DNA of 64,000 nucleotides from Extensimonas vulgaris (GTDB taxonomy: Bacteria; Pseudomonadota; Gammaproteobacteria; Burkholderiales; Burkholderiaceae_C): positions 62,001 through 126,000 of the forward strand of contig NZ_QPJU01000002.1 in NCBI RefSeq assembly GCF_003337425.1, in the 5' to 3' direction. Below, piece after piece: positions 46,855-64,000 of this stretch. Position 1 is the stretch's first letter. Each line of letters starts with the position of its first letter. The notes below the pieces were generated by a model. That model did no database searches. It was not told the origin of the DNA and saw only the letters and a list, made by a program, of their open reading frames with translations. A program made the position numbers and the translations under genes.

Positions 46855-46883
46855 GGTGCGTACTCCTTATGCGTGGGCGTGGG

Positions 46884-47345
46884 TCAGCGCAGCACGGCCG
46901 CAGCGGCCGTGGCGTAGTCGGTTTTGTGCTCGGCCATGTAGGCCAGCACCTGTTTGTGTTGCGCCAGGCGCTGCGGATCGGACTCGGCAAACGCGGCACC
47001 ATCAGCAGCTGCGCCCATGGCCACCTCAGGCGCCACGGCGTCGCGCGTGGCATGCTCGCCAAACTGCACCATGGCAGGCTGCGCCTGCAATGCAGTTTTC
47101 AGCGCCGTCAGCAGCGGTGCCTTGGCGTCGCCCTCGCCAAACTCCACGGGCGCATCCTGCGCAGCCAGGTAGTCCAGCGTCGCCACCAGCACGTCGCGCG
47201 CGGCGGGCAGCATGCGCCCCTGCGCCACCAGCTCATCGCAAAATGCCACGTTGTCGGCATGCAGCCGCGCGGCCTTGGCCTGGGCCAGCTCGGCACTCAG
47301 GCGCTCGTTGTCTGCGCGCAAACGCGCGGCTTCCTCTTCGGTCAC
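46884..47345 (-). CDS. scaffold protein from an internal start in the protease gene
   Basis: On the minus strand a GTG at 47345-47343 is preceded by GAGGAG (47357-47352) with six bases between, an excellent ribosome site inside the protease gene and in frame (protease codon 239). The product would be 153 residues: a coiled coil (TEEEAARLRADNERLSAEL) and a C-terminal capsid-binding part ending TDYATAAAAVLR. This mirrors Mu I/Z. The site is seen; its use is inferred. Confidence 0.6.
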   Translation of the reverse strand: MTEEEAARLRADNERLSAELAQAKAARLHADNVAFCDELVAQGRMLPAARDVLVATLDYLAAQDAPVEFGEGDAKAPLLTALKTALQAQPAMVQFGEHATRDAVAPEVAMGAAADGAAFAESDPQRLAQHKQVLAYMAEHKTDYATAAAAVLR

Positions 47346-48059
47346 TGTGGGCTCCTCGTGGATGGTTGAGGGTTGGGAAAAGCTCGCCTGCAGCGGCTGC
47401 AGGTCCTGCGTGGCTTGTGCATCCTGCGCGGCAGCCTGTTGCTCCAGCTGGTCACGCACCAGTTCGGTTTGTGCGCTGGCCTCGAGGCTCTGCACCTGGA
47501 AGCTCGGCACCACGCGATCGGCCTCATCCTGGCCAAACTTGCCGATGATCCAGTCGCGCAGGCTGCGCCACAGGCTGGCGTTGGTCACGTCATCCCATTC
47601 GCCATATTCCATCGTCAGGATGCCTGCCTCATCGTCGGCAAACTGTGGATTGCGCAGCCCCTTCACGGCGGGCGGTTGCGCCCCCAAAAAACCCACATGG
47701 CGCAGGTAATACACACCTGGCACGGGGTTGTTCGGCGCGGTGGGGCCGTAAAACGACGCGGAGATTTTTTTGAACGCCCCTGCGGCCAGCATGTCGGCAA
47801 AATCGGGGTTCACCTGCGCAGGCAGCGCATACAGTCCGCCGCCATCCTTCCCGTTGCCATCGGCATAGCGCAGGCTCTGCACCCAGCCATACGCGGGCAG
47901 GTCGTGCCGCGGGTGACCAATCACCAGCGGCGCTTCGTGTTTCGCGGGGTCATAGGCGGCCACGGTGGCCTGCAGGTCAGACTCGGCAAACGAGATCGTT
48001 TGCCCGCCCATAGCGGTGTGCCGCCCGACCCGGAAGATATGCAGCTCTTTGGTGTCCAT
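46884..48059 (-). CDS. phage prohead protease (Mu I-like) with C-terminal scaffold
   Basis: The 391-residue product has an N-terminal Mu gpI/head-maturation protease domain (MDTKELHIFRVGRHTA, LVIGHPRHDLPAYGWVQSLR, FKKISASFYGPTAPN) up to about residue 200, then a Gln/Ala-rich linker and a coiled-coil scaffold region (EEAARLRADNERLSAELAQA). In Mu the scaffold Z is made from an internal start in frame inside I; the same is likely here (see the feature at 46884-47345). ATG 48059 gives the usual length; the longer frame upstream is unsupported. It lies 66 bases after mor and starts the head-tail operon. Confidence 0.85.
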   Translation of the reverse strand: MDTKELHIFRVGRHTAMGGQTISFAESDLQATVAAYDPAKHEAPLVIGHPRHDLPAYGWVQSLRYADGNGKDGGGLYALPAQVNPDFADMLAAGAFKKISASFYGPTAPNNPVPGVYYLRHVGFLGAQPPAVKGLRNPQFADDEAGILTMEYGEWDDVTNASLWRSLRDWIIGKFGQDEADRVVPSFQVQSLEASAQTELVRDQLEQQAAAQDAQATQDLQPLQASFSQPSTIHEEPTVTEEEAARLRADNERLSAELAQAKAARLHADNVAFCDELVAQGRMLPAARDVLVATLDYLAAQDAPVEFGEGDAKAPLLTALKTALQAQPAMVQFGEHATRDAVAPEVAMGAAADGAAFAESDPQRLAQHKQVLAYMAEHKTDYATAAAAVLR

Positions 48060-48125
48060 GCCCTGCAATGTGCTGCAGGGCGTGCGCCTGGGCGAACGCA
48101 AGCGCTTTAGTATTTTTGGCCGCGC

Positions 48126-48560
48126 TCAGGCGGCGTCCATGCCAGGAAGGTCAGACTGGCGCCGCAGAAAGCGCTCGCGCTGATAGGTGTCCACGATCTG
48201 CCGCACGCGCACTTCGGTCAGACCATACTCGCGTGCCAGTGTACGGTAGTCGCCCCGGAATTTGGCACACATTTCGCGGTCGCGCAGGCTCAGGCGCACC
48301 GCCACGCCCTTGGGCAAATACACCTGCCCGCCACCTTTTTGCTCGCACAGGTGCAGCAGCTGCGCCATGCACTGCGCCGCCATGGCGCGCAGCTTTTGTC
48401 CCCACTCCCCCGTGGGTGCTGCGCACCCGGCGCGCTCGTCCTGCAACACCAGTGCCTCGTACAGGCAATGCGCTATGTCGCGCATGTCCTCGGTCATGCC
48501 ATCGAGGTACAGCGCCTCCAAAATGGCCAATTCGGCGGCGCTCAGGTGCCTGTCACTCAT
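48126..48560 (-). CDS. mor: Mor-family transcription activator
   Basis: The 144-residue product fits the Mor/C activator family: an N-terminal helical dimerisation region and a C-terminal helix-turn-helix (YRTLAREYGLTEVRVRQIVDTYQRERF), preceded by QVYLPKGVAVRLSLRDREMCAKFRGD. In Mu, Mor switches on the middle promoter leading to late gene expression. Here it lies at the end of the early genes, directly before the protease/capsid operon. It overlaps the gemA stop by eight bases. Confidence 0.87.
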   Translation of the reverse strand: MSDRHLSAAELAILEALYLDGMTEDMRDIAHCLYEALVLQDERAGCAAPTGEWGQKLRAMAAQCMAQLLHLCEQKGGGQVYLPKGVAVRLSLRDREMCAKFRGDYRTLAREYGLTEVRVRQIVDTYQRERFLRRQSDLPGMDAA

Positions 48561-49023
48561 GGCGTTCCCCTTGCGCGTTGCGCGGCGCCGGCCCGCGCTT
48601 GACCCACTCCTTCAGCGCCTCGATGCAGGTATCCAGCTGGGCGCTGTTGCAAAAACGCAGTGCGCTCACATGCACCGTGCGCTCCACCCACGCATCGAGC
48701 GCGGCGCGGCTTGGGTTGTTGACCAGGCCGTCCTGGTGCAGCTGGTGCCACAGTGCCCACACCTTGCGCTCGCGCGGGCTGGCGGAGGCCTTTGCCTGCG
48801 CAAAGCGCTCTTGCGTCAGCGGGTGGCGGCGCGTGGTCTGTGCCAGGCCCATACGCACCGTCAGGCCCTGCAGGTGCTCGCGCACCGTGCGGCGCTGCGC
48901 CTGCGTCATGTCCTTGCTGCTGGCCTTGCCCGTCAGGTGCAGCAGCAACGCGCGGTAGTCGTCGTCGCTCATGCCCAGTTTGGCCTTGAGCACATGGATT
49001 GCTGCAGTGTGGTTTGCGGCCAT
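48553..49023 (-). CDS. gemA: GemA-like regulatory protein (Mu gp16, DUF1018)
   Basis: The 156-residue product contains the DUF1018 hallmark LKAKLGMSDDDYRALLLHLTGKASSKDMTQ (seen here in two halves) and KVWALWHQLHQDGLVNN. In Mu, GemA (E16) alters host gene expression and DNA relaxation. GTGAGG six bases before ATG 49023 sets the start. It overlaps mor downstream. Confidence 0.87.
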   Translation of the reverse strand: MAANHTAAIHVLKAKLGMSDDDYRALLLHLTGKASSKDMTQAQRRTVREHLQGLTVRMGLAQTTRRHPLTQERFAQAKASASPRERKVWALWHQLHQDGLVNNPSRAALDAWVERTVHVSALRFCNSAQLDTCIEALKEWVKRGPAPRNAQGERHE

Positions 49024-49030
49024 GATCGCC

Positions 49031-49531
49031 TCACCGGCCCTTGTCTGCAGCATGCAGCGCAAACAATGTGAACCGCTGCGCAGGCAATTCCAGGGTTTGC
49101 GCCACCAGATCGTGGCCCATGCGCGCCACGGCCACCATCTGCCCGGTGCAGCTCGTCAGGTAAGGCGCGCCGAACTCAGCCCCGGCATGGCGCACGACAC
49201 CGCCGGCGCGCACACGGCGCAGGAACCACGACGTCACCACCGCCTTTTCCGCCTTGTAGCATGCCCATGCAGACAAAATGTTGCCCGCGTCCCTGGGCCA
49301 ATAGCCATTGCGCAGGCGCCGGATCGTCCAGCGCGTGAGATTGAGTGCGCGAGCGGCTTCCGACAGCGGCTTCGCATGGACAAAATCCGTCAAATCAGGC
49401 GGACACGATAAAACGCCGCAGGACGCGCGCAACGCATCCGTGGCTACCTTCGTATTGCCACACACGTTTTCAGCGCTCCCAGGCGCGTGCAAATCGTGCG
49501 TTGAGGCATTCGCTGCATGGTCATACATCAT
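49031..49531 (-). CDS. phage early protein with helix-turn-helix, unknown function
   Basis: The 166-residue product has a likely helix-turn-helix at about residues 60-95 (KPLSEAARALNLTRWTIRRL) followed by GYWPRDAGNILSAW. The C-terminal half is mixed. It may be a regulatory protein of the early operon. Two adjacent ATGs (49531 and 49528) follow GGAGG by three and six bases; the second has the better spacing. I do not recognise a family. Confidence 0.62.
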   Translation of the reverse strand: MMYDHAANASTHDLHAPGSAENVCGNTKVATDALRASCGVLSCPPDLTDFVHAKPLSEAARALNLTRWTIRRLRNGYWPRDAGNILSAWACYKAEKAVVTSWFLRRVRAGGVVRHAGAEFGAPYLTSCTGQMVAVARMGHDLVAQTLELPAQRFTLFALHAADKGR

Positions 49532-49628
49532 CAACCTCCAAAAATTCGAGATCCGGTGTTCTCGGACACCGGAAACCGGGCTTTGCTGCACCGGCCGTTG
49601 CCGGCCTGGAGACTGCGGCGCGCAAGGG

Positions 49629-49748
49629 TCAACGCGGCGCATTGGTGCACGTGCCTGCAGCGGTTGCGGGGCTGAAGCCACCCCAGGGCACCCACTGCCT
49701 GCCCTGCCGGCCTGTCGCGCCCCTCGGCGGCCGGCGCGCGTTACGCAT
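49629..49748 (-). CDS. possible 39-aa early phage ORF
   Basis: An ATG overlapping the stop of the 80-residue gene (ATGA), with GGAGG ten bases upstream, opens a 39-codon frame rich in Arg/Gly/Pro. Coupled tiny genes are common in early operons, but composition alone gives no support. The bases 49532-49628 hold nothing I can identify. Confidence 0.25.
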   Translation of the reverse strand: MRNARRPPRGATGRQGRQWVPWGGFSPATAAGTCTNAPR

Positions 49749-49990
49749 CAGCGGTAATCCTCCGGCGTCGCCGGCGGGCGCGGCTTTGGTTCGTGCCGTG
49801 CGCAGGTGGCGTAGGGCGTGACGAAAAACGCCCCCACGTTGCACACCATGCCGCGCTCTTCGCGCCAGTAGCACACGGCCACGGCACCCTCAGAGCCCGC
49901 CACGGCCGAATGCGCGCAATTGCCGCAGCTGGGGCGCGCCTGTAGCGGCTTGTAGCCCATGTCCAACTGCCGCATCTTGATGCTGCCCAT
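49748..49990 (-). CDS. cysteine-rich small early phage protein
   Basis: The 80-residue product has five cysteines in two groups (CGNCAH near residue 22; CYW, MVCN and ATCARHE further on), a pattern that could bind zinc or an iron-sulphur cluster. The start codon lies three bases after the gam stop. I know no function. Confidence 0.62.
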   Translation of the reverse strand: MGSIKMRQLDMGYKPLQARPSCGNCAHSAVAGSEGAVAVCYWREERGMVCNVGAFFVTPYATCARHEPKPRPPATPEDYR

Positions 49991-49993
49991 GGA

Positions 49994-50521
49994 TCAACCC
50001 TCCACCGTGGCGGCAGCCTCGAAGGGCACGATCACGAAATCCTCCACCCCCGTCACGATGTTGATGCCGGCAATGCCGCGCACCGCATCGGGCTCGTTGA
50101 GCATTGCCTCCTTGTTGGGCTCGTACCGGGTACGCACGAAACGGCCCAGGCCCATGCGCAGCAGGGTTTCGATCACGGCGTCCGCACCGCGTATGGCAAC
50201 GCTGGGGGGGCGCAGACGCCAGCTCACCTCGCCCGTCACCAGGTTGGCCGTTTTGCCGCGCTTGTCGGCCTCGCCACACAGCTCGACACGGTGCGCCTCG
50301 CACCAGGCCTGCACACCGGCCTGCAGCGCCTCGATGCGCTGCTGCCGATCGGCCAGCAATGGCTGGAACGCCTGCGTGATGGTGGCAATCTGGTCGTTCA
50401 TGTCCGAGCGCAGGCGCTCGAAGTCGCGCTGCAGCTCGCCAATCTGGCGAATGTGCTGCGCGCATTCGTTGCGATCCTGCGGTACGTGCGCGTGGGTTTT
50501 GTTTTTGATGCGTGTGGCCAT
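49994..50521 (-). CDS. gam: host-nuclease inhibitor protein Gam
   Basis: The 175-residue product matches Mu Gam: a long N-terminal helix (QIGELQRDFERLRSDMNDQI), then TGEVSWRLRPPSVAIRGADAV and TRYEPNKEAMLNEPDAVRGIAGINI. Gam dimers bind double-strand DNA ends and block RecBCD, protecting phage DNA. It lies in the early operon. Confidence 0.9.
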   Translation of the reverse strand: MATRIKNKTHAHVPQDRNECAQHIRQIGELQRDFERLRSDMNDQIATITQAFQPLLADRQQRIEALQAGVQAWCEAHRVELCGEADKRGKTANLVTGEVSWRLRPPSVAIRGADAVIETLLRMGLGRFVRTRYEPNKEAMLNEPDAVRGIAGINIVTGVEDFVIVPFEAAATVEG

Positions 50522-50555
50522 GATGTTTCTCTACAGGTTGGTTGAAATGACTTTT

Positions 50556-50912
50556 TCAGCGGTGCACCAGTGCACCGAAGAACAGACTCGGGCAGCGCTT
50601 GAAGTCCAGCGCCCCTTCGCGCGCAGGCTCATCGCGCGGCGGCACATAGACGGGGGCATGCATGCGGTCAAACTGCGGTGCCTGGGGTATGGCAAGGCGG
50701 GTATCCACGGCGCCCCACAGCATGTAGCAGCGTGAATTGCCCTCACGCCCCAGCCGCTCGATGTAACCGAGGTCTGCCATGCGCTTGAGGCGGTTATTGA
50801 TATGGCGCACGCTCAGGTGCGGCGTCACCACGCGCATGTCCTGCGCGGTGGCCGGCCCCTGCTCGCGCAGAAACTCGAGCAGCTGCAGGGCCTCGTAGCT
50901 CAGTCCTTTCAT
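50556..50912 (-). CDS. winged-helix phage protein
   Basis: The 118-residue product has a MarR/IclR-like winged helix at residues about 5-60 (ALQLLEFLREQGPATAQDMR ... RHINNRLKRMADLGYIERLG) and a tail PRDEPAREGALDF. Probably a DNA-binding early regulator. The start overlaps the stop of the zinc-finger-like gene (ATGA). Confidence 0.68.
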   Translation of the reverse strand: MKGLSYEALQLLEFLREQGPATAQDMRVVTPHLSVRHINNRLKRMADLGYIERLGREGNSRCYMLWGAVDTRLAIPQAPQFDRMHAPVYVPPRDEPAREGALDFKRCPSLFFGALVHR

Positions 50913-51535
50913 GGCGTCTCTCCTTTGCGTTTTGCGATGGCCTCGCGCATGGCGCGCACGGTGGGCGATGTGCCCGCGGGCGCTGCAGCAGGCGCGGGCC
51001 TGGGCGCTGGCATGGGCGCGGTTGATCCAGGTCGCGCAATGGGCGTCGCCCCGCCCGTGAAAAGCGCGCCCACATGCGTGGGTGCGTCACTGGAGTGCGC
51101 ACGGCCAGCGCTGCGGCGTTCGGCCTCGCGCGTTTGCTCGGCGGCGGCCTCGTGCCTGTCCGCCATGCCGCTCAAAATGGCGTACAGGTATCCGTGCCCC
51201 TTCATGGGCAACTCCAGGCGCTGCAGGTCGCGCGCGGCCAGCATCTGGTCAATGGCCTGCGCCCATGCGGACAGCGGAGCGGGCCAGTCACGCCCCTTCC
51301 AGGTAATGGCCTGGCGCTCCAGGTCGGGCAGCAGCTGCAGGATCAGCTTGATCTTTTTGCTCGCAGTCAGGCGCTGCTTCGGCGGTGTGAACAGGGCCAC
51401 GTACTGCAACACACGCGCCCCCAGCGGAATGCTCACCGTGGCCAGCCTGCTGAGCGCGCGGTGATCCATCTCGCAGGCAAACAGGCTGCTCATGTCCAGC
51501 TCGGTGCCGCATACGGGGCAGGAAAGATCTGCCAT
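50909..51535 (-). CDS. phage early protein with an N-terminal zinc-ribbon-like motif
   Basis: The 208-residue product begins MADLSCPVCGTELDMSSLFAC, a CxxC-type half site, followed by a helical middle and an Ala/Pro-rich tail (TAPMPAPRPAPAAAPAGTSP). Found in early regions of related Mu-like prophages; function unknown. It overlaps its neighbours on both sides. Confidence 0.68.
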   Translation of the reverse strand: MADLSCPVCGTELDMSSLFACEMDHRALSRLATVSIPLGARVLQYVALFTPPKQRLTASKKIKLILQLLPDLERQAITWKGRDWPAPLSAWAQAIDQMLAARDLQRLELPMKGHGYLYAILSGMADRHEAAAEQTREAERRSAGRAHSSDAPTHVGALFTGGATPIARPGSTAPMPAPRPAPAAAPAGTSPTVRAMREAIAKRKGETP

Positions 51536-51825
51536 CAGTGCCACGCCTTTCCTGCCGCCAGCAGCAGCAGCGCGCCAAGCTCGATGCACAGCACCGCCAG
51601 CAGCACCGCCGTGGTGCGTCGCATGGGCACCATCTGGCCGGCCGTGCGCCGCGCGCGGCGTGGCATGTGCTCTATCGCCCCCGGCGCAAAATAAAAGCCG
51701 CCCGCCGGCAGGGCGCCTGTGTCATGGCGTACAGCCATGCGGGGTTCCTCGCGGCAGCTGCAGGAGCCCTTGGTGCCGGCATTGCATACGCCAAGCTCCG
51801 CACACGTATATCCTCGGATCGTCAT
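51535..51825 (-). CDS. small cysteine-rich early phage protein with a C-terminal membrane helix
   Basis: The 96-residue product has a Cys-rich N-terminus (YTCAELGVCNAGTKGSCSCR) and a C-terminal hydrophobic helix (AVLLAVLCIELGALLLLAAG). AAGGAG six bases before ATG 51825 fixes the start. It could be a tail-anchored membrane protein. Function unknown. Confidence 0.65.
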   Translation of the reverse strand: MTIRGYTCAELGVCNAGTKGSCSCREEPRMAVRHDTGALPAGGFYFAPGAIEHMPRRARRTAGQMVPMRRTTAVLLAVLCIELGALLLLAAGKAWH

Positions 51826-51980
51826 GGTTTGCTCCTTTGGATGCAGATTGCGCTCACACTGCGCGCCTGCGGGTAGTCGGCCATGGTTTGCAGCACGGCC
51901 TCGATGCCGCACGCGAACAGGCCGGTATAGCGACGGGCGCTGCCGTCTTGCATGGTGATGCGGATGCTGTAAATGGTCAT
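51822..51980 (-). CDS. 52-aa early phage protein
   Basis: This short frame starts MTIYSIRITMQDGSARRYTG and ends QRSKP; its stop overlaps the next ATG as ATGA, and it carries the ribosome site of that gene. It looks like a small alpha/beta protein (ITMQDGSARRYTGLFACGIE) and occurs where Mu-like phages have tiny early genes. It lies four bases after the MuB stop. Confidence 0.62.
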   Translation of the reverse strand: MTIYSIRITMQDGSARRYTGLFACGIEAVLQTMADYPQARSVSAICIQRSKP

Positions 51981-51983
51981 GGC

Positions 51984-52892
51984 TCAGCACCCCGCAATCA
52001 CGTGCGCATCGATCTTCGGGTAGCCCACCAGCGCCGCCGCGTTGAGCGCGCGGCACACCAGGTTGTTCACCACCAACGGGTAGCACACGCTCACCGCAGC
52101 GCTGGCATGGCCTGTGCGCGCGCCGCGCGGCGTGGCAATCAGGCGGGCGCGAATCGCATCCATGGCATCGGCCTCGAACAGGTCTGCCACCCTGGCGCCG
52201 GCACGCTCGAGTTTGTGCGTCAGGTAGCCCTCAAGGTCGTTGTCCAGCGGTTCCATGGCGATCAGTTCGCAGCGCTGCACAATCTCGCGCACCTCGGGGT
52301 TTTGTTCGCTCAGCAGCGTGCGCAGCTCGGGCTGGCCAATCAGCGCCACGCCCAGCAAGCGGCGCAGGCCGTCCTTAAGCTCCATAAAATTCTTCAGGTG
52401 TTTGAGCGTGGGTAGCGGCATGCGGTGCGCCTCTTCAATCAGTACCAGGTGCGTATAGCCCGCCGATCGGCTGCTTTTGAGCAGCTCATGCACCTGGCGG
52501 TAGCGCCCCTCGGGGCTGCTCTTGAGCTGCACATTCGGCGCCAGCGCATGCACGATGGACTCTGCAATCTGGCCCACGCGCATCGGCTTGCCGCGCGCCT
52601 CGCTGGGCTCCATGCCCAGCACATAGGGCTTGATCAGGATGATGGGCCGCGCCTCCTCGCGGATGCGCTCTTCCAGCTCCTCGCGCAGCGTGGTTTTGCC
52701 GCTGCCGGACTCGCCCACGATGGCCACAAAGCCGTTGTTGGTGGCCGCGTCCAGCAGCGCGGCACGCACGTAACGCCCGTGCTGCGTCACAAACACGTCC
52801 TCGCGCGCCTGTATGTCATCGACAAAGGGATTGCGCGCCAGGCCAAAGTGGCGTTTTGCCGCGGGCGAAAGGCTCTCATTGCGTAGTAACAT
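51984..52892 (-). CDS. MuB-type transposition ATPase
   Basis: The 302-residue product is an AAA+ ATPase of the MuB/TniB/ExeA type: FGLARNPFVDDIQAREDVFV, Walker A GESGSGKTT (about residues 61-69), Walker B THLVLIEEAH and sensor GVALIGQPEL. It would bind target DNA and stimulate the transposase. AGGAGG eight bases before ATG 52892 supports this start and homologues begin with the same MLLR motif; a second in-frame ATG at 53006 overlaps the transposase stop as ATGA and would add 38 low-complexity residues. Confidence 0.88.
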   Translation of the reverse strand: MLLRNESLSPAAKRHFGLARNPFVDDIQAREDVFVTQHGRYVRAALLDAATNNGFVAIVGESGSGKTTLREELEERIREEARPIILIKPYVLGMEPSEARGKPMRVGQIAESIVHALAPNVQLKSSPEGRYRQVHELLKSSRSAGYTHLVLIEEAHRMPLPTLKHLKNFMELKDGLRRLLGVALIGQPELRTLLSEQNPEVREIVQRCELIAMEPLDNDLEGYLTHKLERAGARVADLFEADAMDAIRARLIATPRGARTGHASAAVSVCYPLVVNNLVCRALNAAALVGYPKIDAHVIAGC

Positions 52893-53002
52893 CGTCGGTA
52901 CCTCCTGGTGTTCCGTTGGTTTGGTTTCTGGGGGGTTCATTGGCCCCTGGGTTGCACAGCCCATGGGGCCTTCTTTTTGCCCGTATGCGGCGGCGGCATC
53001 GC

Positions 53003-54784
53003 TCATGCGTCACCCCCCACCACGCGCAGGCCTGCGCGCACCGTCAGGCGTGCGGCAATCTCCGGCAGCTTGTCTTCTGGCACCCCCTCCGGGTATTGCT
53101 GGCGCAGCGTGGCCAGCAGCGCCGGCGTCATGGCCACGCCCTGCGCCACCAGCGCGCGCGCTGCCGCAAAATGCGTGAGCGGCGGCACGGAATCCTGCTG
53201 CGCCAGCCTTGCGCCCGCCTCGAGCGCGGTGCCGCGCCGCGGCAAAAAGACGCGCTCTGGCGCCTGCTCGATGACCTTGTACGGGTCTATGCGCCCGCCA
53301 AACGGCAGCGCCTTGGCCTTGCGCGCGGCCTCGGCCTCGGCATCGGTCTGCGCGTCCATGGCCACGCGCTCGAGCTCCTTGCGCGTGGCATCGAGCTGCG
53401 TGTCCTGCGGGCGCGCCCAGTCCTCACCGATCACATTGGCATCGGTGCGGAACCCCGCCCCATCGCGCGCCACCATGGGCACGCTGTGCAGCAGCTCATT
53501 GCCATCGGCATCGGTCAGCACGATGGTGGCGGCGTCCTGCGCATAGGGGTTGATGGCCACGGAGAGTTTCTCGCCCACCATCACGCCGGGCACATCGCGC
53601 ACGTCGTACTCTGCGCCACCAAAACTCACCGTCTGCGTCACGCTCACCTTGCGCAGCTCGGGGTGGTGCGTCAGCAGTGCCTGGCACACCTGCACCGACG
53701 GCGCAATGCGCAGCTGATCCTCGCGGATGCTCATCCAGGCGTCATACCGCGTTTTGCCATGGCGCGTGTGCACGCGATGGCCGTTGAACCACTGCGCCCA
53801 GCGCTGCGCCTGGTGGTTCAGCTCCTGCAGGTCGCGCACCGGGCGCAGGCGCAGTCCGCTCTCGAAGCTCTTTTCGATCAGGTCGCGCGCCTTTTCCACC
53901 TGGCCGGTGGCGCGCGCATTGCCTGGAGCGTGCGCAATCAGCCTGACCTGCAGGCGCCGTGCCAGATTGGCAAACAGCCCGCTGGTATTGGCGCTGCCCA
54001 TATCCATCATCAGGATGTAGGGCACGCCGTGCATGGGGTCGCCATCGCACTTTTGGATGAACTCTATGAAGCACTCCGCCAGGTTGGCGCCGCTCTCTGC
54101 CCCCATCACGTAGCGCAACTTGATCGCACCGCTATAGTGGTCTGTGGCCTCGTATGACCACACGCGGTCGGCCTCGATGCGCCTTAGGTTGCTGGGCTTG
54201 TTTTTGTAGAAAACGCTGTGCTGCATCACCTGCAGCCCGGTCTCGCGCTCGGTGTTCGCATGCAGGTAATACAGCACGCACAGACTCGCGTCTATCTGCC
54301 ACACATGGTTGGGGTGCAGGCTGCGCAGCTCCACCGCCGGTGCCGGCCGGTTGATCTGCTCGGGGTGCATGCCATAGGCGCGCAGCGCACGCGCGATGGC
54401 GCTGTCCGACAGCGGCACCAGCTCGCCCGTGGCGGCGTCCAGGCGCTGCGCGCGGATTTCGCCGTTGGCGCGCAAAATCTGCACTGCCTGGCCAACCGAC
54501 ATCAGGCGCTTGGAGTTTTTGCGGTGGCTTTCCATCAACATGGCGCTGATGGCTATCGCCTCGGTGCGCGGCAGGCACACTGCGCCGGCATCGTCGCGGC
54601 GCTTGCGCTGCGGGCGCGGCGCCACTTTAGCCAGGTGGCGGTGCAGCGTAGCCAGGCTCATACCCAGCTCTGCGCAGGCCGCGGCGTACAGCGCGCCGCG
54701 CTGCCCGGCGGGCAGCTCCTGCACCTGCTGCGCCAGCTGCGCCAGCCGCTGCGTGCGCACGGGGTTCAGGGTGTGGTGGTGCAT
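53003..54784 (-). CDS. Mu-like phage transposase (DDE integrase core, DD35E)
   Basis: The 593-residue product has N-terminal helix-turn-helix DNA-binding regions (GMSLATLHRHLAKVAP; DSAIARALRAYGMHPEQI), then an rve-type catalytic core with Asp165 (HVWQIDAS), Asp261 (MMDMGSANTS) and Glu297 (GQVEKARDLIE), exactly 35 residues apart for the last two, then a Mu-C-like beta domain (VSFGGAEYDVRDVPGVMVG). It replicates the phage by transposition. ATG 54784 is preferred; a GTG at 54832 overlapping the upstream gene is possible. The spacing DD35E resembles IS481/retroviral integrases and phages such as BcepMu rather than Mu itself. Confidence 0.9.
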   Translation of the reverse strand: MHHHTLNPVRTQRLAQLAQQVQELPAGQRGALYAAACAELGMSLATLHRHLAKVAPRPQRKRRDDAGAVCLPRTEAIAISAMLMESHRKNSKRLMSVGQAVQILRANGEIRAQRLDAATGELVPLSDSAIARALRAYGMHPEQINRPAPAVELRSLHPNHVWQIDASLCVLYYLHANTERETGLQVMQHSVFYKNKPSNLRRIEADRVWSYEATDHYSGAIKLRYVMGAESGANLAECFIEFIQKCDGDPMHGVPYILMMDMGSANTSGLFANLARRLQVRLIAHAPGNARATGQVEKARDLIEKSFESGLRLRPVRDLQELNHQAQRWAQWFNGHRVHTRHGKTRYDAWMSIREDQLRIAPSVQVCQALLTHHPELRKVSVTQTVSFGGAEYDVRDVPGVMVGEKLSVAINPYAQDAATIVLTDADGNELLHSVPMVARDGAGFRTDANVIGEDWARPQDTQLDATRKELERVAMDAQTDAEAEAARKAKALPFGGRIDPYKVIEQAPERVFLPRRGTALEAGARLAQQDSVPPLTHFAAARALVAQGVAMTPALLATLRQQYPEGVPEDKLPEIAARLTVRAGLRVVGGDA

Positions 54785-54819
54785 GGTGGCGAGCCCTATG
54801 CGGTGTGCGTGCAGCCCGA

Positions 54820-55798: not shown

Positions 55799-56122
55799 CT
55801 AGCCTGGGTTGCGCGTGTAGCGCTGGCGCGCCTCGTCCAGGCGGCGCTGCGCGGTGTCCAGCGCAGCAAACACCTTGATGGACTGCTGCGGCAGGCGTTG
55901 CGTCAGGCGCCATAGGCCGGTGGCCTCGTCGCGCTCGGCCAGGCCTGCGGTGGCCAGGTTGTCGAGGTCGCGCAATATCACGGGCACGCTGCAGCCCACG
56001 GCCTTGGCCAGCGCCGTGGGCGCCATGCCTTGCACCACATCGGCAAACAAGGCCAGCACCACCTGCAGCAGGCGCTGCTGCGCGCGGTTGGTGTAGTCGG
56101 TTTTGCGGGGGCGGGTGGTCAT
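55799..56122 (-). CDS. IclR-like winged-helix phage protein
   Basis: The 107-residue product has a helix-turn-helix (APTALAKAVGCSVPVILRDL) and a wing (NLATAGLAERDEATGLWRLT) like IclR N-terminal domains. It overlaps the CII-like gene by ATGA. It probably acts as an early regulator or transposition accessory protein. Confidence 0.68.
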   Translation of the reverse strand: MTTRPRKTDYTNRAQQRLLQVVLALFADVVQGMAPTALAKAVGCSVPVILRDLDNLATAGLAERDEATGLWRLTQRLPQQSIKVFAALDTAQRRLDEARQRYTRNPG

Positions 56123-56595
56123 GCGTCAAACTCCAGTTGCGGCTGGGCATATGCAGCCACGTTGCGCTCGTGGTAGGCCACGCGCTCCATGTGTTCGCGC
56201 AGCGCTGCCGCCGTTACGCTGGCATCGGTGCGCGCCGGGTCGGCATAAAAGTTGGTCAGCAGTTGCAGCGCCTGGGCAAAGCCGCTGTTGAGCTGCACCA
56301 TGTCTGCGGCATCGGCCTTTTTTCCCGTGGGCATGGCCACCACCATGCGCCCTGCAGACGCCGCCAGCCATTCGCTCACGTAGTGGCAGCCGCAGGCGTG
56401 TTCGTAGGGCGGTATCAGGTTGGCCGGCAGGCGCCCCGTGGCCAGCCACTTGTAGAGGCTGTCGTGCGTCACGCCCATGCGATCGGCGATGCGCTCCACG
56501 CTGAGGTTTGAGCGCTCCTGCGCATAGGCCTTGCACAGACGCAGCGCCTCCACCAGGCTGGCGGCGCGCAGGCGTTTCCAATCGCGGCGGATCAT
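56119..56595 (-). CDS. CII-like phage regulatory protein
   Basis: The 158-residue product has a helix-turn-helix (LSVERIADRMGVTHDSLYKW) followed by GRLPANLIPPYEHACGCHYVSEWLA, matching the phage regulatory protein CII (Phage_CII_2) family. AAGGGG seven bases before ATG 56595 supports the start. Its upstream region is shared with a divergent small gene at 56709. Confidence 0.75.
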   Translation of the reverse strand: MIRRDWKRLRAASLVEALRLCKAYAQERSNLSVERIADRMGVTHDSLYKWLATGRLPANLIPPYEHACGCHYVSEWLAASAGRMVVAMPTGKKADAADMVQLNSGFAQALQLLTNFYADPARTDASVTAAALREHMERVAYHERNVAAYAQPQLEFDA

Positions 56596-56708
56596 TGGAA
56601 GGCCCCTTTGCGCAGCGCTTCCAAAAAGATTCCGTCTTTTGCACTGGTAAAGCGGCTTTCGCAGTGGCAAAGTGCAGGCATGTCACACAACCCCTCGAAA
56701 GGACGAAC
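56596..56708. promoter_or_regulatory. divergent region between the CII-like gene and a small plus-strand gene
   Basis: The region contains two inverted pairs: GGAAG/CTTCC just before the CII-like start and TGCACT (56640-56645)/AGTGCA (56671-56676). They may be operators. No strong -35/-10 pair stands out. Confidence 0.3.
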
Positions 56709-56993: not shown

Positions 56994-57011
56994 GTGGCAT
57001 GGTGCAGTGGT

Positions 57012-57685: not shown

Positions 57686-57730
57686 GGTGGTGGCTCCGTT
57701 GGTTTGGTGGAGGTGGTTGGCAAAGGCGCG

Positions 57731-58086: not shown

Positions 58087-58434
58087 ATGGGTATTGGACA
58101 AAGATTGCGTGAAGAACGCGAGCGATTGCAGATGAGCCAGGAGGAACTTGGCTCTGTTGGAGGCGTGCGCAAGCAAGCCCAGCTGCACTATGAAAAAGAT
58201 GAAAGATCGCCAGACGCTAGGTACTTGTCCGAAATCGCCAAAGTCGGAGTTGATGTTGCATACGTCCTCACCGGCGAGCGCGCGAAGCCCATCGCAGAGC
58301 TGGAGTTGCTTCCCCCGCAGGAGCGCATCCTGTTGGACAATTTCCGCCATGCGCCGCAGGCCGTGCAGGCCGGCGTGCGCACTACGCTAGGTGCGTTCGC
58401 GCCTGCGAATGCCACCAAGAAACGCGCCAGTTGA
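58087..58434 (+). CDS. CI/XRE-family phage repressor
   Basis: The 115-residue product has an XRE helix-turn-helix (IGQRLREERERLQMSQEELG, RKQAQLHYEKDERSPDARYL) and a short tail (LPPQERILLDNFRHAPQAVQ), typical of small phage repressors without a protease domain. The HTH recognition helix sequence resembles repressors of related prophages. It starts a few bases after a palindrome, without a ribosome site. It likely shuts off the early operon and, with the same sites, its own gene. Confidence 0.85.
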   Translation: MGIGQRLREERERLQMSQEELGSVGGVRKQAQLHYEKDERSPDARYLSEIAKVGVDVAYVLTGERAKPIAELELLPPQERILLDNFRHAPQAVQAGVRTTLGAFAPANATKKRAS

Positions 58435-58456
58435 TCCCCACTGAAAGGAGCCTGAA

Positions 58457-58969: not shown

Positions 58970-59037
58970 AAACCACATGATGGCGAAAAAGCCAGCGCGC
59001 AGTGGCCCATGACGACCGACCACAACAAGGAGACATG

Positions 59038-59331
59038 ATGACTCAGGATTCCGTCAAGGTATTGGCCACAGGCGTTGCCACGCTTGGCGAAGCCGTTGAG
59101 GAAGTGAAGGGGGAGCTTGCAGTGGTGGTGTGTGCGCTGGCAGCATTGCTGCGCACGCATCCAGATGGGCAGGCGTTTGCAGCGGAGTTGCGCAGAGCAT
59201 GGCTGCAGATTGGCGCACCGAATCAAGCGCTTGCTGCCGACGATGCCACTGGTCGCCGTATGCGCGAAGTGCTGGTGATTCTGGAAGAATGTTGCTCGAC
59301 CCCGTTGAACATTCTGCCGCCTTCGCGTTAG
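59038..59331 (+). CDS. small phage protein (97 aa), unknown function
   Basis: The product has a mildly hydrophobic middle (LAVVVCALAALLRTHPDGQA) and ends with EECCSTPLNILPPSR. AAGGAG five bases before ATG 59038 sets the start (ATG 59035 is too close). It comes before the lysis genes, but the hydrophobic segment is too short to call a holin. Confidence 0.6.
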   Translation: MTQDSVKVLATGVATLGEAVEEVKGELAVVVCALAALLRTHPDGQAFAAELRRAWLQIGAPNQALAADDATGRRMREVLVILEECCSTPLNILPPSR

Positions 59332-59629
59332 CGGTGGCGGTGTTCATGCCTGAAACCTTAACGGCACCAGCCGCTCGGTCAGCCCAACTTTTGCGCCAGG
59401 CCATGCGCGCGATGAGTGCAATACAAAAAGCGCTGGTGCCAAGTGTCTTCCAGTGGTGCCGTTGCATGATGATGCCTTTTGGGGAGTGAGTGCTGCAGCG
59501 TAGCCTGGGGGTTGCCGTTGCAATAACTAAACCGCTTTCGTTCGCCCGGCTCGCGCGCGCGCGGCACCATGCTGGGCATGACGTCATACCGCGATCTACA
59601 TCCCTACGCCCTCCGTTGCGGAGGCGCGC
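59332..59629. promoter_or_regulatory. region before the lysis genes with a repressor-site-like sequence
   Basis: About 300 bases without a confident gene. An 11-mer, TTGCAATAACT (59518-59528), repeats exactly the sequence at 58064-58074 that includes the left arm of the palindrome before the repressor. A weak 47-codon frame starts at 59346 but lacks a ribosome site. The region probably holds the late (lysis) promoter. Confidence 0.4.
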
Positions 59630-60172
59630 ATGGCGCTTGACTCCCAACGCATAGGCATTGCGGCCCTGGTGCTGTCTGCATCCGGCCTGGTGTATATCGC
59701 CCAGCGCGAGGGCTACAGCGACAAGGCCTACCCCGACCCCGTGCATGGCAAGGCCGTGGCCACGCTGGGATACGGCTCCACGGGTGGTGTCAAGATGGGC
59801 GACACGACCACGCCGGTGCGCGCCCTGGTGCGCCTGCGCGCCGATGCGGCCGAGGTGGAGGTAGCGCTGCGCAAGTGCCTTGCCGTGCCCATGTACCAGC
59901 GCGAGTGGGATGCTTTCGTGGGCCTGGCCTACAACACGGGCGCCACGGCCGTGTGCAAAAACAATGCCCGCACGGGGCCCAGCACCCTGGCGCAGCGCCT
60001 GCAGGCGGGCGACTATGCGGGCGCGTGCGATGCCATCATGCTGTACGACAAGGCTGGCCCCGTGCACAAGCCGCAAGACCGTTGCAGCCACCCCGACAAC
60101 CGCACCTGCCGCGGCGTATGGGCAGACCGCCAGCGCCTGCGCGCGATGTGCCTGGGAGTGCCTGCGCCATGA
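59630..60172 (+). CDS. SAR endolysin (GH24 lysozyme)
   Basis: The 180-residue product has a weakly hydrophobic N-terminal segment (IGIAALVLSASGLVYIA), typical of a signal-anchor-release domain, then the catalytic triad region with Glu27 (REGYSDKAYPDP), Asp36 and Thr45 (ATLGYG). FVGLAYNTG and the C-terminal CRGVWADRQRLR are conserved. It is a muramidase exported by the host Sec system and activated when released from the membrane. Cysteines may form the inactive disulphide. ATGA overlap with the spanin gene. Confidence 0.9.
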   Translation: MALDSQRIGIAALVLSASGLVYIAQREGYSDKAYPDPVHGKAVATLGYGSTGGVKMGDTTTPVRALVRLRADAAEVEVALRKCLAVPMYQREWDAFVGLAYNTGATAVCKNNARTGPSTLAQRLQAGDYAGACDAIMLYDKAGPVHKPQDRCSHPDNRTCRGVWADRQRLRAMCLGVPAP

Positions 60173-60795
60173 CTTTCAGCCCCATCAACCTGGCCACAGA
60201 CCGCACCCGTGCGCTGCTGGTGGCAATAGCCGCATGCGCCGCGCTGGCGCTGTGCGCCTACCTCTACGTTGCAGGCCGCAACGCCGGCATGCGCACCGTG
60301 CAGACGCGCTGGGACGCTGCGGAGGATCGGCGCCGTGCCGACGATGCCCAGGCCGCCATGCAGGCCGCGCAGCGCCAGGCCATCGCAGAGCGCGCGGCCC
60401 GCGAAACCGAGTTGCAACACCAGGCTACCGCCGAAAGGATCGCCCATGACCAAGCCAACCGCGAGGCTGCTTTGCGCGCTGACGCTGAGCGCAGTGCTGC
60501 CCATGCTCGCAGCCTGCTCGACACCATCGCCCAGCTCAACCGGGCTGGGGCTGCGCCCGCTGCCGGACTGCCCACGCCCGCCACGCCTGCCGGCGCCGAT
60601 GCCGGGCCTGATGGAGCCACCACCGCCCGCAACGCACTCGGCGAGTGCAGCCAGCGATATGCAGCTGTGGCAGCAACGGCTGACGGGCTCAGCGCCCAGG
60701 TGACGGGCCTGCAGGCGTGGGCGCGCATGGCTATGGATGGCAATGGCGACGCCGCAACGGGCGCTGCAGAAAACGGGAGTGGAAATGGTCTTTGA
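60169..60795 (+). CDS. Rz-like inner-membrane spanin
   Basis: The 208-residue product has an N-terminal membrane helix (LLVAIAACAALALCAYLYVA) and then a long Ala/Arg/Glu coiled coil (AQAAMQAAQRQAIAERAARE), the i-spanin layout. The o-spanin Rz1 is encoded inside it in another frame. The tail after about residue 135 is Ala/Gly/Pro-rich. It joins the inner and outer membranes at the last step of lysis. Confidence 0.85.
   Translation: MTFSPINLATDRTRALLVAIAACAALALCAYLYVAGRNAGMRTVQTRWDAAEDRRRADDAQAAMQAAQRQAIAERAARETELQHQATAERIAHDQANREAALRADAERSAAHARSLLDTIAQLNRAGAAPAAGLPTPATPAGADAGPDGATTARNALGECSQRYAAVAATADGLSAQVTGLQAWARMAMDGNGDAATGAAENGSGNGL
60446..60703 (+). CDS. Rz1-like outer-membrane spanin lipoprotein, embedded in the Rz gene
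   Basis: In a different frame inside the Rz gene an ATG at 60446, with GAAAGGA before it, opens an 85-residue lipoprotein: TARLLCALTLSAVLPMLAAC with a lipobox cysteine at residue 24, then a proline-rich stretch (DCPRPPRLPAPMPGLMEPPP). This is the classic nested Rz1 arrangement. It contacts Rz in the periplasm. Confidence 0.8.
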   Translation: MTKPTARLLCALTLSAVLPMLAACSTPSPSSTGLGLRPLPDCPRPPRLPAPMPGLMEPPPPATHSASAASDMQLWQQRLTGSAPR

Positions 60796-61141
60796 GCTGA
60801 CGCTGGGAAACGTGATCACCGTACTGGCGCTTGTCGTGGCGGCCTTGTGGGCACTGGCAAAAATGGTCAATGTGCAGTATGAGCGCCGCATTGCCGACAA
60901 GTTCGACGCGCTGGTCAAGCTGCTCGATGGCATCTCCACCGCGCAGGATGGCAATGCCAAGGCCATGCAGGAGCTGGAGCGCCAGTTCATGCGTCTGCAA
61001 GGCGAGCTTCCCCTGAACTACGTGCGCCGCGAGGATTACGTGCGCGGGCAGTCCATCGTGGAGGCCAAGCTAGACGGCCTGGCCACCAAACTTGACAACG
61101 TGCAGCTGCGCGCCGCATTCAGCGACAGGAGCCACCCATGA
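60785..61141 (+). CDS. Mu gp25-like phage protein (DUF2730)
   Basis: The 118-residue product has an N-terminal membrane helix (VITVLALVVAALWALAKMV) and a coiled-coil tail (LNYVRREDYVRGQSIVEAKL), matching DUF2730/Mu gp25. It overlaps the Rz end by 11 bases. A role in lysis or membranes is possible; function unknown. Confidence 0.82.
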   Translation: MVFELTLGNVITVLALVVAALWALAKMVNVQYERRIADKFDALVKLLDGISTAQDGNAKAMQELERQFMRLQGELPLNYVRREDYVRGQSIVEAKLDGLATKLDNVQLRAAFSDRSHP

Positions 61142-61452
61142 CCACCTTGAACGACACGCAACGCATCCGGCGCGAGCACCTGCGCTGGCTGATCCTGCTC
61201 ACGCTCAACAATGCGCGCCCGCTGGGCGCTCCCGAAGGCCCCATTCTGGCCGTGGCGCAGGCCGAGTACCCCGACGCCACACCGCTGGAACTGCGCCGCG
61301 AGCTGGACTACCTGCACGAGCGCGAGCTGATCCGGCTGGATCGCCAGCCCAGCGGACGCTGGCATGCCGAGCTTACGCGCGAGGGCGTTGATCTGGCCGA
61401 ATACACCACGCAGTGCGAGCCCGGCATTGCCCGCCCGCAGAAGTATTGGTAA
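61138..61452 (+). CDS. Mu gp26-like winged-helix phage protein
   Basis: The 104-residue product contains LILLTLNNARPLGAPEGPIL, YPDATPLELRRELDYLHERE and RWHAELTREGVDLAEYTT, like the gp26/VpaChn25_0724 group with a winged helix. It overlaps its neighbour by ATGA and precedes the terminase genes as in Mu. Confidence 0.8.
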   Translation: MTTLNDTQRIRREHLRWLILLTLNNARPLGAPEGPILAVAQAEYPDATPLELRRELDYLHERELIRLDRQPSGRWHAELTREGVDLAEYTTQCEPGIARPQKYW

Positions 61453-61462
61453 GGGGCGCCAC

Positions 61463-62035
61463 ATGGGCAGAAAATCCAGCGTGGCGCGCTTGCCGCAGGA
61501 TGTCAAGGCGTACATCGAGGCCATGCTCGCCACGGGTGCGCAAACCCTCGACGAAATGATTGCCGACCTGCAGGCGCGCTTCCCCGCGCAGGCGCACGAT
61601 GGCGCCTTGCCAAGCCGCTCTGCGCTGCATCGCTATGGCTCCAAGCTAGACCGGCGCCTGTCCGCCATACGCGCCAGCACCGAGGCCGCCAAGCTGATCC
61701 AGGCGCAGGCCGGAGACGACAAGGACGCGCGCAGCGAGGCCCTCACGGCATTGGTGCAGACCGAGCTTTTCGAGGCCATTTTGTGCCTGCAAGAAGCCGA
61801 CGACCCAGACGCAGACCCAGCCGAGCGCGTGGCCCAGCTCAGCGCCGCGGCCAAGAACATTGCCACGCTCACGCGCAGCTCGGTCAACCTCAAAAAATAC
61901 CAGGCCGAGGCCGAAGAGGCCGCGCGCCTCAAGCTGCTGGAAGAGCAGCGCAAGGCGCTCGAATCCATGCCCAACCGCGGCGGCGTGACCGACGAAACCA
62001 AGGCCGCCATCCGCGCCGCGCTGGGGATTGCATGA
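61463..62035 (+). CDS. terminase small subunit (Mu gp27-like, DUF3486)
   Basis: The 190-residue product starts MGRKSSVARLPQDVKAYIEA and has a helical DNA-binding N-terminus (PSRSALHRYGSKLDRRLSAI) typical of DUF3486, then a coiled coil. It would recognise phage DNA ends for packaging. AAGGGG six bases before ATG 61463. It overlaps the large subunit by ATGA. Confidence 0.87.
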   Translation: MGRKSSVARLPQDVKAYIEAMLATGAQTLDEMIADLQARFPAQAHDGALPSRSALHRYGSKLDRRLSAIRASTEAAKLIQAQAGDDKDARSEALTALVQTELFEAILCLQEADDPDADPAERVAQLSAAAKNIATLTRSSVNLKKYQAEAEEAARLKLLEEQRKALESMPNRGGVTDETKAAIRAALGIA

Positions 62036-63465
62036 TGCCTGCCGAGCTCCCTGCGCATCCCACCAAACCACGCGATCGCAAGGGCCGCGCGAAAGTAATC
62101 CCGCGCGATGCGCAAGCCATTTTTCTGCCTTACCAATCGGCATGGATCAAGGATGAGTCGCGCCTTAAATTGATGGAAAAAGGCCGGCAGATTGGCCTCT
62201 CGTGGAGCACGGCCTATGCCTGCGTGGAGCGCACTGCAGCGCAGGGGGCTCGCCATGACCAATGGGTGAGCAGCCGCGACGATCTGCAGGCGCGCCTGTT
62301 CGTCGAGGACTGCAAGCTCTGGGCCGGCATCATGGGCATGGCCGCCAAAGACCTGGGTGAGCTACTGATTGACGATGGCGCGCGCAGCAGCGCCTACGTG
62401 GTGGAGTTTGCGTCCGGCAAACGCATCCACAGCATGAGCAGCAACCCCGACGCGCAGGCCGGCAAACGCGGCTCGCGCGTGCTGGATGAATTCGCCTTGC
62501 ACCCCGACCCACGCAAACTGTGGTCTATTGCCTACCCTGGCATTACCTGGGGCGGCAACCTGGAGGTAATCAGCACGCACCGCGGCAGCCACAATTTTTT
62601 CAACGGCCTGGTGCGCGAGGTGCGCGAGGGCGGAAACCCCAAGGGAATCAGCCTGCACCGCGTGACGCTGCAGGATGCGCTGGATCAGGGATTCCTCTAC
62701 AAACTGCAATCCATGCTGCCCGCAGACGATGAGCGCCAGGCAATGGATGAGGCGCAGTATTTCGACTTCATCCGCGCAGGTTGCGCCGATGAGGAATCGT
62801 TCCAGCAGGAATACTGCTGCGCCCCGGCGGACGATGACGTCGCATTTTTGGAATACGACCTCATTGCTGCCTGCGAATACCCGCAAACCATCGATTGGCG
62901 AACCCGCGAAAACGGCCCGCTTTTTTGCGGCATTGACATCGGCCGCAAGCAGGACTTGACCGTGCTTTGGGTGCTGGAAAAGCTGGGGGACACCTATTAC
63001 ACGCGCCACGTGGAGGCATTGCGCGGCATGCGCAAGTCCGACCAGGAGGCCATCCTATGGCCATGGATAGAGCGCAGCCGCCGCACCTGCATCGATGCGA
63101 CGGGCCTTGGCATTGGCTGGGTCGATGATGCGCAGGACGCATGGGGCCATTACCGGGTGGAGGGCGTGACCTTCACCGGGCCCGTCAAGGAGTCCATGGC
63201 CTATCCAGTGCGCGGCGCCATGGAAGACCGAAAGTTGCGCATCCCTTACGACCAGCGCATCCGCGCTGACCTGCGCTCCGTCACCAAGGTGGTGAGCAGC
63301 GCTGGCAACATCCGTTTTGCGGCAGAGCGCACGCCAGACGGCCACGCTGACCATTTTTGGGCACTGGCATTGGCATTGCACGCAGACAGCGCACCCAGCG
63401 GGCCTCCGAGCGTGGCCAGCCGACCGCGCCGCACCGACCTGCGCCTGCAATTGGAGGGCTATTGA
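62032..63465 (+). CDS. terminase large subunit (Mu gp28-like)
   Basis: The 477-residue product has a Walker A-like motif at residues 49-60 (EKGRQIGLSWST), Walker B (RVLDEFALHPD) and a C-terminal RNaseH-like nuclease with GIDIGRKQDLTVLWVLEKLG and CIDATGLGIGWVDDAQ. It motors DNA into the prohead and cuts it. ATGA overlap with the small subunit fixes the start; two ATGs in tandem are available. Confidence 0.93.
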   Translation: MMPAELPAHPTKPRDRKGRAKVIPRDAQAIFLPYQSAWIKDESRLKLMEKGRQIGLSWSTAYACVERTAAQGARHDQWVSSRDDLQARLFVEDCKLWAGIMGMAAKDLGELLIDDGARSSAYVVEFASGKRIHSMSSNPDAQAGKRGSRVLDEFALHPDPRKLWSIAYPGITWGGNLEVISTHRGSHNFFNGLVREVREGGNPKGISLHRVTLQDALDQGFLYKLQSMLPADDERQAMDEAQYFDFIRAGCADEESFQQEYCCAPADDDVAFLEYDLIAACEYPQTIDWRTRENGPLFCGIDIGRKQDLTVLWVLEKLGDTYYTRHVEALRGMRKSDQEAILWPWIERSRRTCIDATGLGIGWVDDAQDAWGHYRVEGVTFTGPVKESMAYPVRGAMEDRKLRIPYDQRIRADLRSVTKVVSSAGNIRFAAERTPDGHADHFWALALALHADSAPSGPPSVASRPRRTDLRLQLEGY

Positions 63466-63466
63466 T

Positions 63467-64000
63467 ATGACCGCACGCGGCCTTTACGTCACGCCGAGCG
63501 AATTCGTGCATTTTGCAGACCCATCGGCGCAGCGCCCCCTGTCAGAGCAGATTGCCACACGCGACCGCAGCCCTGATTTTGCGGCGCTGAGCCTGTTGCT
63601 GCCAAACCCTGACCCCATCCTCAAAAAACAGGGCCGCGACATTGCCATTTACACCGAGCTGCGCAGCGATGCGCACGTGGGCGGCTGCATTCGGCGGCGC
63701 AAGGCGGGTGTGCTGGCAATGGAATGGCGGCTGCAGCGCGGCAATGCGAGTGCGCGCACGCTCAAAATATGCCAGGCGGCATTCGATGCGCTGGATATGC
63801 GCCGCATCCTGCGCGAAATGCTCGATGCCCCGTTGTTTGGTTGGCAGCCAATGGAGATCGTGTGGAGCAAACCGCTATTCGGTGGCGCAACGGTGCCGCT
63901 GGATGTGCTGGCAAAGCCTGTCACGTGGTTCCAGTTCGACGCCAATGCGCAACTGCGTTTTCGCTCGCGCAATGCGCCGCTGTATGGCGAGGAGTTGCCA
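63467..64000 (+). CDS. portal protein (Mu gp29-like, DUF935), 5' part only
   Basis: The first 178 residues are in the window: TPSEFVHFADPSAQRPLSEQ, DPILKKQGRDIAIYTELRSD, HVGGCIRRRKAGVLAMEWRL, LFGWQPMEIVW. They match the DUF935/gp29 portal family. GGAGG nine bases before ATG 63467 supports the start. The gene runs off the right edge, so C-terminal features cannot be seen. Family members are about 500 residues. Confidence 0.9.
   Translation, partial: MTARGLYVTPSEFVHFADPSAQRPLSEQIATRDRSPDFAALSLLLPNPDPILKKQGRDIAIYTELRSDAHVGGCIRRRKAGVLAMEWRLQRGNASARTLKICQAAFDALDMRRILREMLDAPLFGWQPMEIVWSKPLFGGATVPLDVLAKPVTWFQFDANAQLRFRSRNAPLYGEELP

Follow-up and report, generated by a model that had tools for sequence, protein, structure and literature searches.

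How can a phage stay workable when the genes for its particle lie in two blocks that run in opposite directions? The usual explanation for the order of phage genes is that one late series is transcribed sequentially. The question is raised by a Mu-like transposable prophage of Extensimonas vulgaris, in which the lysis, terminase and portal genes point one way and the protease, capsid and tail genes the other. The stretch analysed here (the window) comprises 64,000 nucleotides, positions 62,001 to 126,000 of contig NZ_QPJU01000002.1 (assembly GCF_003337425.1), and positions below are those of the window. We think it likely that this is a B3-type prophage with one half of its genome inverted, kept workable by a Mor-dependent promoter on each late arm. 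The gene order is already known from phage KS10; what is new is the late promoter rule that the two arms have in common.

The prophage is complete and measures 37,719 bp (29899-67617), with its right end past the window edge (Table 1). Read from left to right, it carries tail, tape measure, tube, neck, capsid and protease genes, mor, gemA, accessory genes and the transposition genes B and A, all leftward, and then, rightward, a repressor-like gene, lysozyme, terminase, portal, Mu F-like and Mu G-like genes and a DNA methylase. We write E for the early operon, L1 for the lysis-to-G arm and L2 for the protease-to-tail arm. The initial annotation of this DNA had described the virion genes as two opposite blocks around the early region, with Mor directly before the protease operon, and both points are borne out, mor ending 66 bp from the I start codon. 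It had also drawn the seam after the portal, between the Mu lys operon and the I operon; the two operons are indeed what the seam separates, and it lies after G, not after the portal. A second complete capsid and tail set to the right of the portal had been named as grounds for giving up the split. There is none up to the host genes on that side (hemerythrin, MarC), so the split is not overturned.

The ends are TG at 29899 and CA at 67617, and a 6-bp target duplication, TCAGAT, is present on both flanks; a blind re-search for such combinations ranks the same ends first, again at 37,719 bp. TG...CA ends with a 6-bp duplication are a stated trait of B3-like phages (PMC8705779). In the prophage, the early and lysis operons also diverge across the repressor, as in B3, and the transposase, with its partner ATPase, is of the B3 type (phrog_310, 4e-114; phrog_296, 4e-51). 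In two genomes of the same genus (G135, G222) the left and right flanks adjoin without a prophage. A repeat, ATTGGGGTCAGATT, has copies beside the prophage on both sides (29860-29905; L004:10100-10220, in the adjoining stretch) and recurs elsewhere in the host genome and in these two same-genus genomes; TCAGAT is part of it. A search for TG, CA and a duplication gave nothing convincing for the ends of seven other prophages, for which the fetched stretches may stop before the ends.

Dyads at the starts of the late arms

When the two arm starts are set side by side, the same 21 bases appear with two differences, each copy pointing into its own arm. Each contains a 16-bp dyad, with 5-bp repeats around a G/C-rich hexamer, in the place of a -35 box, and a putative weak -10. 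The Mor site of Mu is likewise 16 bp long, with 5-bp inverted repeats and a G/C-rich hexamer, and has its axis at -43.5 (PMC4390567). At the level of sequence, and with a presumed start point, the size, spacer and distance to the ATG in the prophage match this Pm-type site. A search of the window for the dyad pattern with up to 3 mismatches returns 2 places, and none in 100 shuffles, the pattern having been derived from these two.

Relatives were collected in scans with a transposase alignment. The best 80 of 138 genome loci and the best 80 of at least 576 viral loci gave, after removal of near-copies, 137 non-redundant loci centred on A. The window layout is seen on both arms in 42 of them and 14 more show only mor followed by I, a total of 56 other loci. 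Loci were labelled 'B' if L1 is opposite to the early operon and no protease-arm gene occurs in at least 2.5 kb after mor, and 'B?' if that stretch is shorter; four 'mixed' loci are counted together with these labels. From the maps, we relabelled by hand L117, L120, L137 and L228 as having a swapped layout, L098 and L108 as having a fourth layout, and L138 as falling in no class.

In these relatives the dyad is a near-perfect palindrome with consensus ACTAAAGCGCTTTAGT, and matches to at least 13 of its 16 positions number 41 in the 137 loci and 2 in shuffled loci. A weight matrix trained on I sites only, with the window left out of training, puts the same two sites at the top of the whole prophage (20.9 and 16.7; the next scores 9.8, and the threshold is 12.3). 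Before L1, the matrix finds a site in 30/43 window-layout loci and in 1/43 of a control stretch, a match rate that is not fully blind, the starting consensus having been drawn from lists with sites of both arms. The spacing, and the co-variation with Mor described below, do not depend on the matrix consensus in that way.

For the spacing test, I start codons were picked from the protein alone. The axis of the best site before I is 43.5 or 44.5 bp from the ATG in 46 of the 56 loci, and between 42.5 and 45.5 bp in 50. Sites over threshold are present before I in 37/56, all at 42.5-44.5 bp; among 550 random ATGs, 3 have a site over threshold, none at that spacing. For L1 sites over threshold (33 loci, 30 of the window layout and 3 'B?'), an ATG lies at 43.5 or 44.5 bp in 26. 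A test that uses no motif gives 44.5 and 43.5 as the strongest dyad axes before I. In a later protease scan of 80 loci, I is preceded by G in 59, by mor in 9 and by the switch in 2, with 10 unassigned, so the co-directional order prevails in the wider protease family; the best site is at 42.5-45.5 bp in all 9 mor-before-I loci and in both switch-before-I loci. The I spacing also holds in 9 of 12 regions from family genomes (see below), three of the 12 being also in the training set.

Comparison of Pseudomonas phage B3 (NC_006548) with itself reveals three dyads, one each before lysis, I and the tape measure, that differ in sequence from those of the window. The one before I has its axis 43.5 bp from an ATG that lies within gene I as annotated; the gene may start there, at 19887, instead of at the annotated 19857 (L246:19857-19887). 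RNA-seq of the B3-like phage Fc02 gave three late clusters, the first starting at holin-endolysin (PMC9936078). Two other features accompany the late starts. Between dyad and ATG, many lysis-arm promoters, those of B3 and the window included, carry a run such as CGCGCGCGCG that might be relevant to promoter DNA structure. At 48060-48081 an 8-bp stem, GCCCTGCA...TGCAGGGC, ends just before the I start codon. Stems of other sequence are found there in many relatives, and the last 28 bp ahead of the I start codon hold a perfect stem of at least 5 bp in 38/56 loci, against 13.2 expected; our guess is that such a stem may silence read-through from mor.

Mor as the probable activator of both arms

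The prophage has a single Mor/C-family gene, mor (one HMM match at E<=1), as does each of the 56 related loci. The L1 site, some 11 kb away from mor, co-varies with Mor (r=0.58), compared with 0.05 for the transposase A and -0.01 for TerS. Its partial correlation with Mor is 0.60 over 31 loci (0/2000 permutations), and that of the I site, which adjoins mor, is 0.42 over 55 loci; the permutations ignore relatedness, and A and TerS distances are only partialled out. The two sites of one genome are alike at 12.26 of 22 positions, and at 9.93 when permuted (0/5000, 42 loci). A serine in the Mor recognition helix accompanies 1/13 I sites with a TAAA/TTTA half and 23/29 of the others (p=1.8e-5), where the helix position was found by text pattern in 42 loci and related loci are not independent. 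Because the lysis-arm dyad tracks Mor and neither the transposase nor the small terminase, Mor probably switches on both late arms in trans.

We propose that each late arm would be headed by its own Mor-dependent promoter, with the 16-bp dyad and the weak -10 followed by an ATG at 43.5-44.5 bp from the axis. Mor, as the last product of the early operon, would act in trans on both arms regardless of their orientation, and the flipped genome would stay workable because each late arm begins with such a promoter. Under the geometry of Mu, with the axis at -43.5, transcription would start at the ATG or one base before it. If that geometry is valid, the I message would be leaderless and the lysis message would open with the 20-codon ORF overlapping the start of lysozyme. 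The first late mRNAs are thus predicted to be leaderless. A literature search of titles and abstract openings, with subscription papers outside its scope, returned no report that Mu-like phages have a fixed spacing from site to ATG or late messages without leaders, and none of the window layout in B3-like phages.

Layouts of relatives and the seam between G and I

We sought the protease in 399 family genomes and found it in 26, the window's own included. The surroundings were fetched for 20 of these, giving 21 regions; a few of the 137 loci are the same prophages. The window layout is present on both arms in 9 of the 21 (G353, one region of G327, G230, G149, G231, G258, G013, G339, G006), three of which are in one-contig genomes; for G006, the terminase, portal and transposase were not found. 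The swapped layout occurs with all markers in G239, and two more regions fit it without a transposase (G228, G011). The B3 order is found in G263 and in the second region of G327. G314 and G321 each have a co-directional region with gemA, in G164 and G207 the late genes are co-directional and the early arm is unplaced, and three regions (G008, G022, G238) fall in no class. The fourth layout is found in two betaproteobacterial metagenome assemblies (L098:2400-17000, L108:1-15100), where portal, F and G lie left of the switch in the same direction as the early operon, that is, L1 flipped alone. It shows that other rearrangement events happen too.

Phage KS10 (NC_011216; PMC2628397) has F, portal, terminase, lysis and repressor running one way and, divergent from them, the early genes with mor directly before protease, capsid and tail; the prophage has the same arrangement, and in both the start of I is near the genome centre. 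The comparison with complete Mu-like genomes that had been suggested in the initial annotation thus reveals that the layout is not unique, as the KS10 authors in 2008 had termed theirs to the best of their knowledge (PMC2628397). KS10 differs in having its G homologue in the protease-to-tail arm, whereas the G-like gene of the window prophage is in the lysis arm, and in having a contractile tail with an annotated sheath, whereas no sheath family was found among the 10 left-arm proteins scanned, the tube being phrog_807. Nor did the window transposase match that of KS10, no Burkholderia record being among its 58 matches. With B3 and its relatives, the prophage shares a transposase 50-52% identical, a TerL 77% identical, and an early operon opposite to the lysis operon; in B3, however, the late genes are all co-directional and mor is at the genome end. 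The early operon of B3 is described as inverted with respect to that of Mu (PMC5977238). Mu (NC_000929) agrees in marker-gene order within each late operon, with the seam between G and I, and differs in running in one direction; its record confirms that the lys and I operons are co-directional, as the initial annotation had it for Mu, and B3 is likewise. Mu has a separate C activator for its late promoters (PMC4461284), unlike the prophage with its one Mor/C-family match.

Other splits are found further away. Among the transposable prophages of Leptospira, group TG1 has TerS, TerL and portal apart from the other structural genes, as here, while NN and TG2 are split in other ways; gemA is mostly near a genome end there, and no Mor/C gene is reported (PMC8705779). 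In the Microcystis phage Mwe-Yong1112-1 (MZ436628) the late genes are also split around the switch, in the swapped version: mor leads into lysis, terminase and portal, and capsid and tail run the opposite way.

In B3, E runs left and L1 and L2 run right. Turning E and L1 round together yields L1 left, E right, L2 right, and this order is that of the window prophage read from its other end; the same inversion of the Mu order gives the swapped version. The breakpoints would be the genome end and the seam between G and I. Since one half-genome inversion is sufficient, no single transcription unit need have moved, and the window order is best described as the B3 order with the early and lysis-to-G half inverted as a block, an event that we infer from gene order. 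We rejected a mere rotation of the B3 order, because in the window prophage the tail arm, too, is inverted. In all four genomes compared, I starts no more than about 0.7 kb from the genome centre: the window prophage (48059 in 29899-67617), KS10 (18120 of 37635), B3 (19887 of 38439) and Mu (18056 of 36717). In the Mu record, a gyrase cut site lies between G and I, at 17879-17880; this central site was found via mutations mapping near these two genes (PMC10052514). Gyrase could conceivably be the cause of breaks at the seam.

On the transposase tree, one starred branch has all 57 window-layout rows on the same side (the window and the 14 one-sided loci are among them), together with 2 swapped, 2 fourth-layout and 1 'B' row and rows in no class. 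When the two main layouts are mapped on trees of the same 60 loci, the transposase tree requires 1 change and the TerL tree 8; both are quick trees without a mixture model, and L213 (labelled 'B') was left out because its contig continues to the right. TerL is also much closer between the window and B3 than the transposase, at about 50% identity. As judged from these trees, the genome modules have separate histories. The suggestion that transcription units were moved as modules is partly supported: the modules have separate histories, and their order does not need such movement.

Two adjacent tail proteins in L2 both belong to PHROG 6079 and represent a duplicated tail gene. Also inside the tail arm, an ORF at 34695-35441 has low G+C and a laminin-G/concanavalin-like domain; it is perhaps a recent arrival in the receptor-binding region.

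Table 1. Features of the prophage, in window coordinates (strand as + or -).
Feature	Position	Strand	Remarks
Prophage, in-window part	29899-64000	.	TG...CA ends, TCAGAT duplication, empty site in G135 and G222
Late arm L2 (protease I, capsid, neck, tail tube, tape measure, tail proteins)	30205-48059	-	PHROG/Pfam
Tail paralogue	30205-32190	-	PHROG 6079
Tail paralogue	32494-34704	-	PHROG 6079
Large tail protein	36125-39700	-	
Tape measure	40109-43321	-	
Tail tube	43595-44338	-	phrog_807
Capsid	45931-46854	-	
Protease I	46884-48059	-	
Mor-type dyad before I	48091-48114	-	axis 44.5 bp from A of I start codon (48059)
mor	48126-48560	-	PF08765, 1.4e-16
Early arm E (gemA, accessory genes, ATPase B, transposase A, DUF3102-like protein)	48553-55743	-	
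GemA	48553-49062	-	
Transposition ATPase B	51984-53006	-	phrog_310/phrog_296 pair with A
Transposase A	53003-54832	-	
CII-like early regulator	56119-56670	-	phrog_101
HTH_3 repressor-like gene at divergence point	58087-58434	+	
Mor-type dyad before lysis operon	59523-59546	+	axis 44.5 bp from ATG at 59578
20-codon ORF, overlaps lysozyme start	59578-59640	+	starts at or next to predicted +1
Late arm L1 (lysozyme, further lysis-region genes, TerS, TerL)	59630-63465	+	
Lysozyme	59630-60172	+	
TerS	61463-62035	+	
TerL	62035-63465	+	
L1 continued: portal	63467-65035	+	window ends at 64000; PF06074, PF04233, PF05069 among L1 matches
Mu F-like	65045-65926	+	beyond window
Mu G-like	65951-66406	+	beyond window
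N6/N4 DNA methylase	66409-67213	+	beyond window; PF01555
Small gene	to 67532	+	beyond window

Competing explanations and meaning

Several results weigh against an inverted half-genome with a Mor-dependent promoter on each arm. The matrix leaves 17/52 I-regions below threshold, and before L1 of B3-type loci it finds sites in 9/50, with 5/50 in the control. Co-directional loci have a matrix site before I in 3/51, none at 44 bp, and no dyad peak. Among the loci of the later scan, only 4/11 are over threshold, and two of the nine mor-before-I loci are on contigs already used; the motif-free test on those 9 ranks 75.5 first and 44.5 second. The I spacing fails in 3 of the 12 family-genome regions (G008, G239, G263), and two of the three B3 dyads lack an ATG at the spacing. 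No element shared with KS10 was found despite the same layout, and no intermediate of the inversion was seen among the loci compared.

Could the split be an assembly artefact at 48 kb or 58-59 kb, as the initial annotation had itself allowed, or a chimera of two prophages joined there? The genome is a 28-contig draft, but the junctions are within a 566-kb contig, one target duplication is common to both ends, the site is found empty in congeners, and the same layout is present in many other assemblies, one-contig genomes among them, and in the sequenced phage KS10; we regard such an error as scarcely conceivable. It is also very improbable that this is a decayed prophage without function whose order was scrambled after insertion, given that the core genes scanned are open, the ends and duplication are intact and the layout is conserved across a wide clade, and that KS10, with the same layout, forms plaques (PMC2628397).

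A different objection concerns the dyads: what binds them could be a regulator other than Mor, either a repressor or a host protein, and their spacing could serve translation and not transcription. The excess of stems before I speaks for it, since something RNA- or DNA-structural is then also there. Yet the L1 site, far from mor, varies with Mor and not with its neighbour TerS, the size, spacer and axis agree with the Mor site of Mu (PMC4390567), and there is no second Mor/C gene in the prophage, which makes another regulator unlikely. A stronger case can be made that the late units moved singly, by module transposition, and not by one half-genome inversion. Further layouts do exist, including the one with L1 flipped alone (L098, L108), and TerL lineages are common to different layouts; against this, a single half-inversion separates the window layout from B3 and the swapped layout from Mu, and the start of I keeps close to the centre in all four genomes compared. 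We hold movement of single units to be possible, if rather doubtful, and prefer the half-genome inversion.

For the large B3-type clade as a whole we lean, with some reserve, towards a general form of this proposal. Each late half would be a self-contained cassette whose Mor site sets the start on the first base of the ATG, giving leaderless late mRNAs. Expression would then be independent of position and strand, a half could flip about the central seam with its gyrase site, and cassettes would be exchangeable between phages if their site fits the resident Mor. The data suggest that a recognition code relates the Mor helix to its site and that the rearrangement seam is linked to the gyrase site at the centre. 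Gene order varies in these phages while the promoter rule, an activator site at a fixed distance from the start codon, stays, and a rule that is constant in this way would offer a concrete and testable reason why capsid modules can be split.

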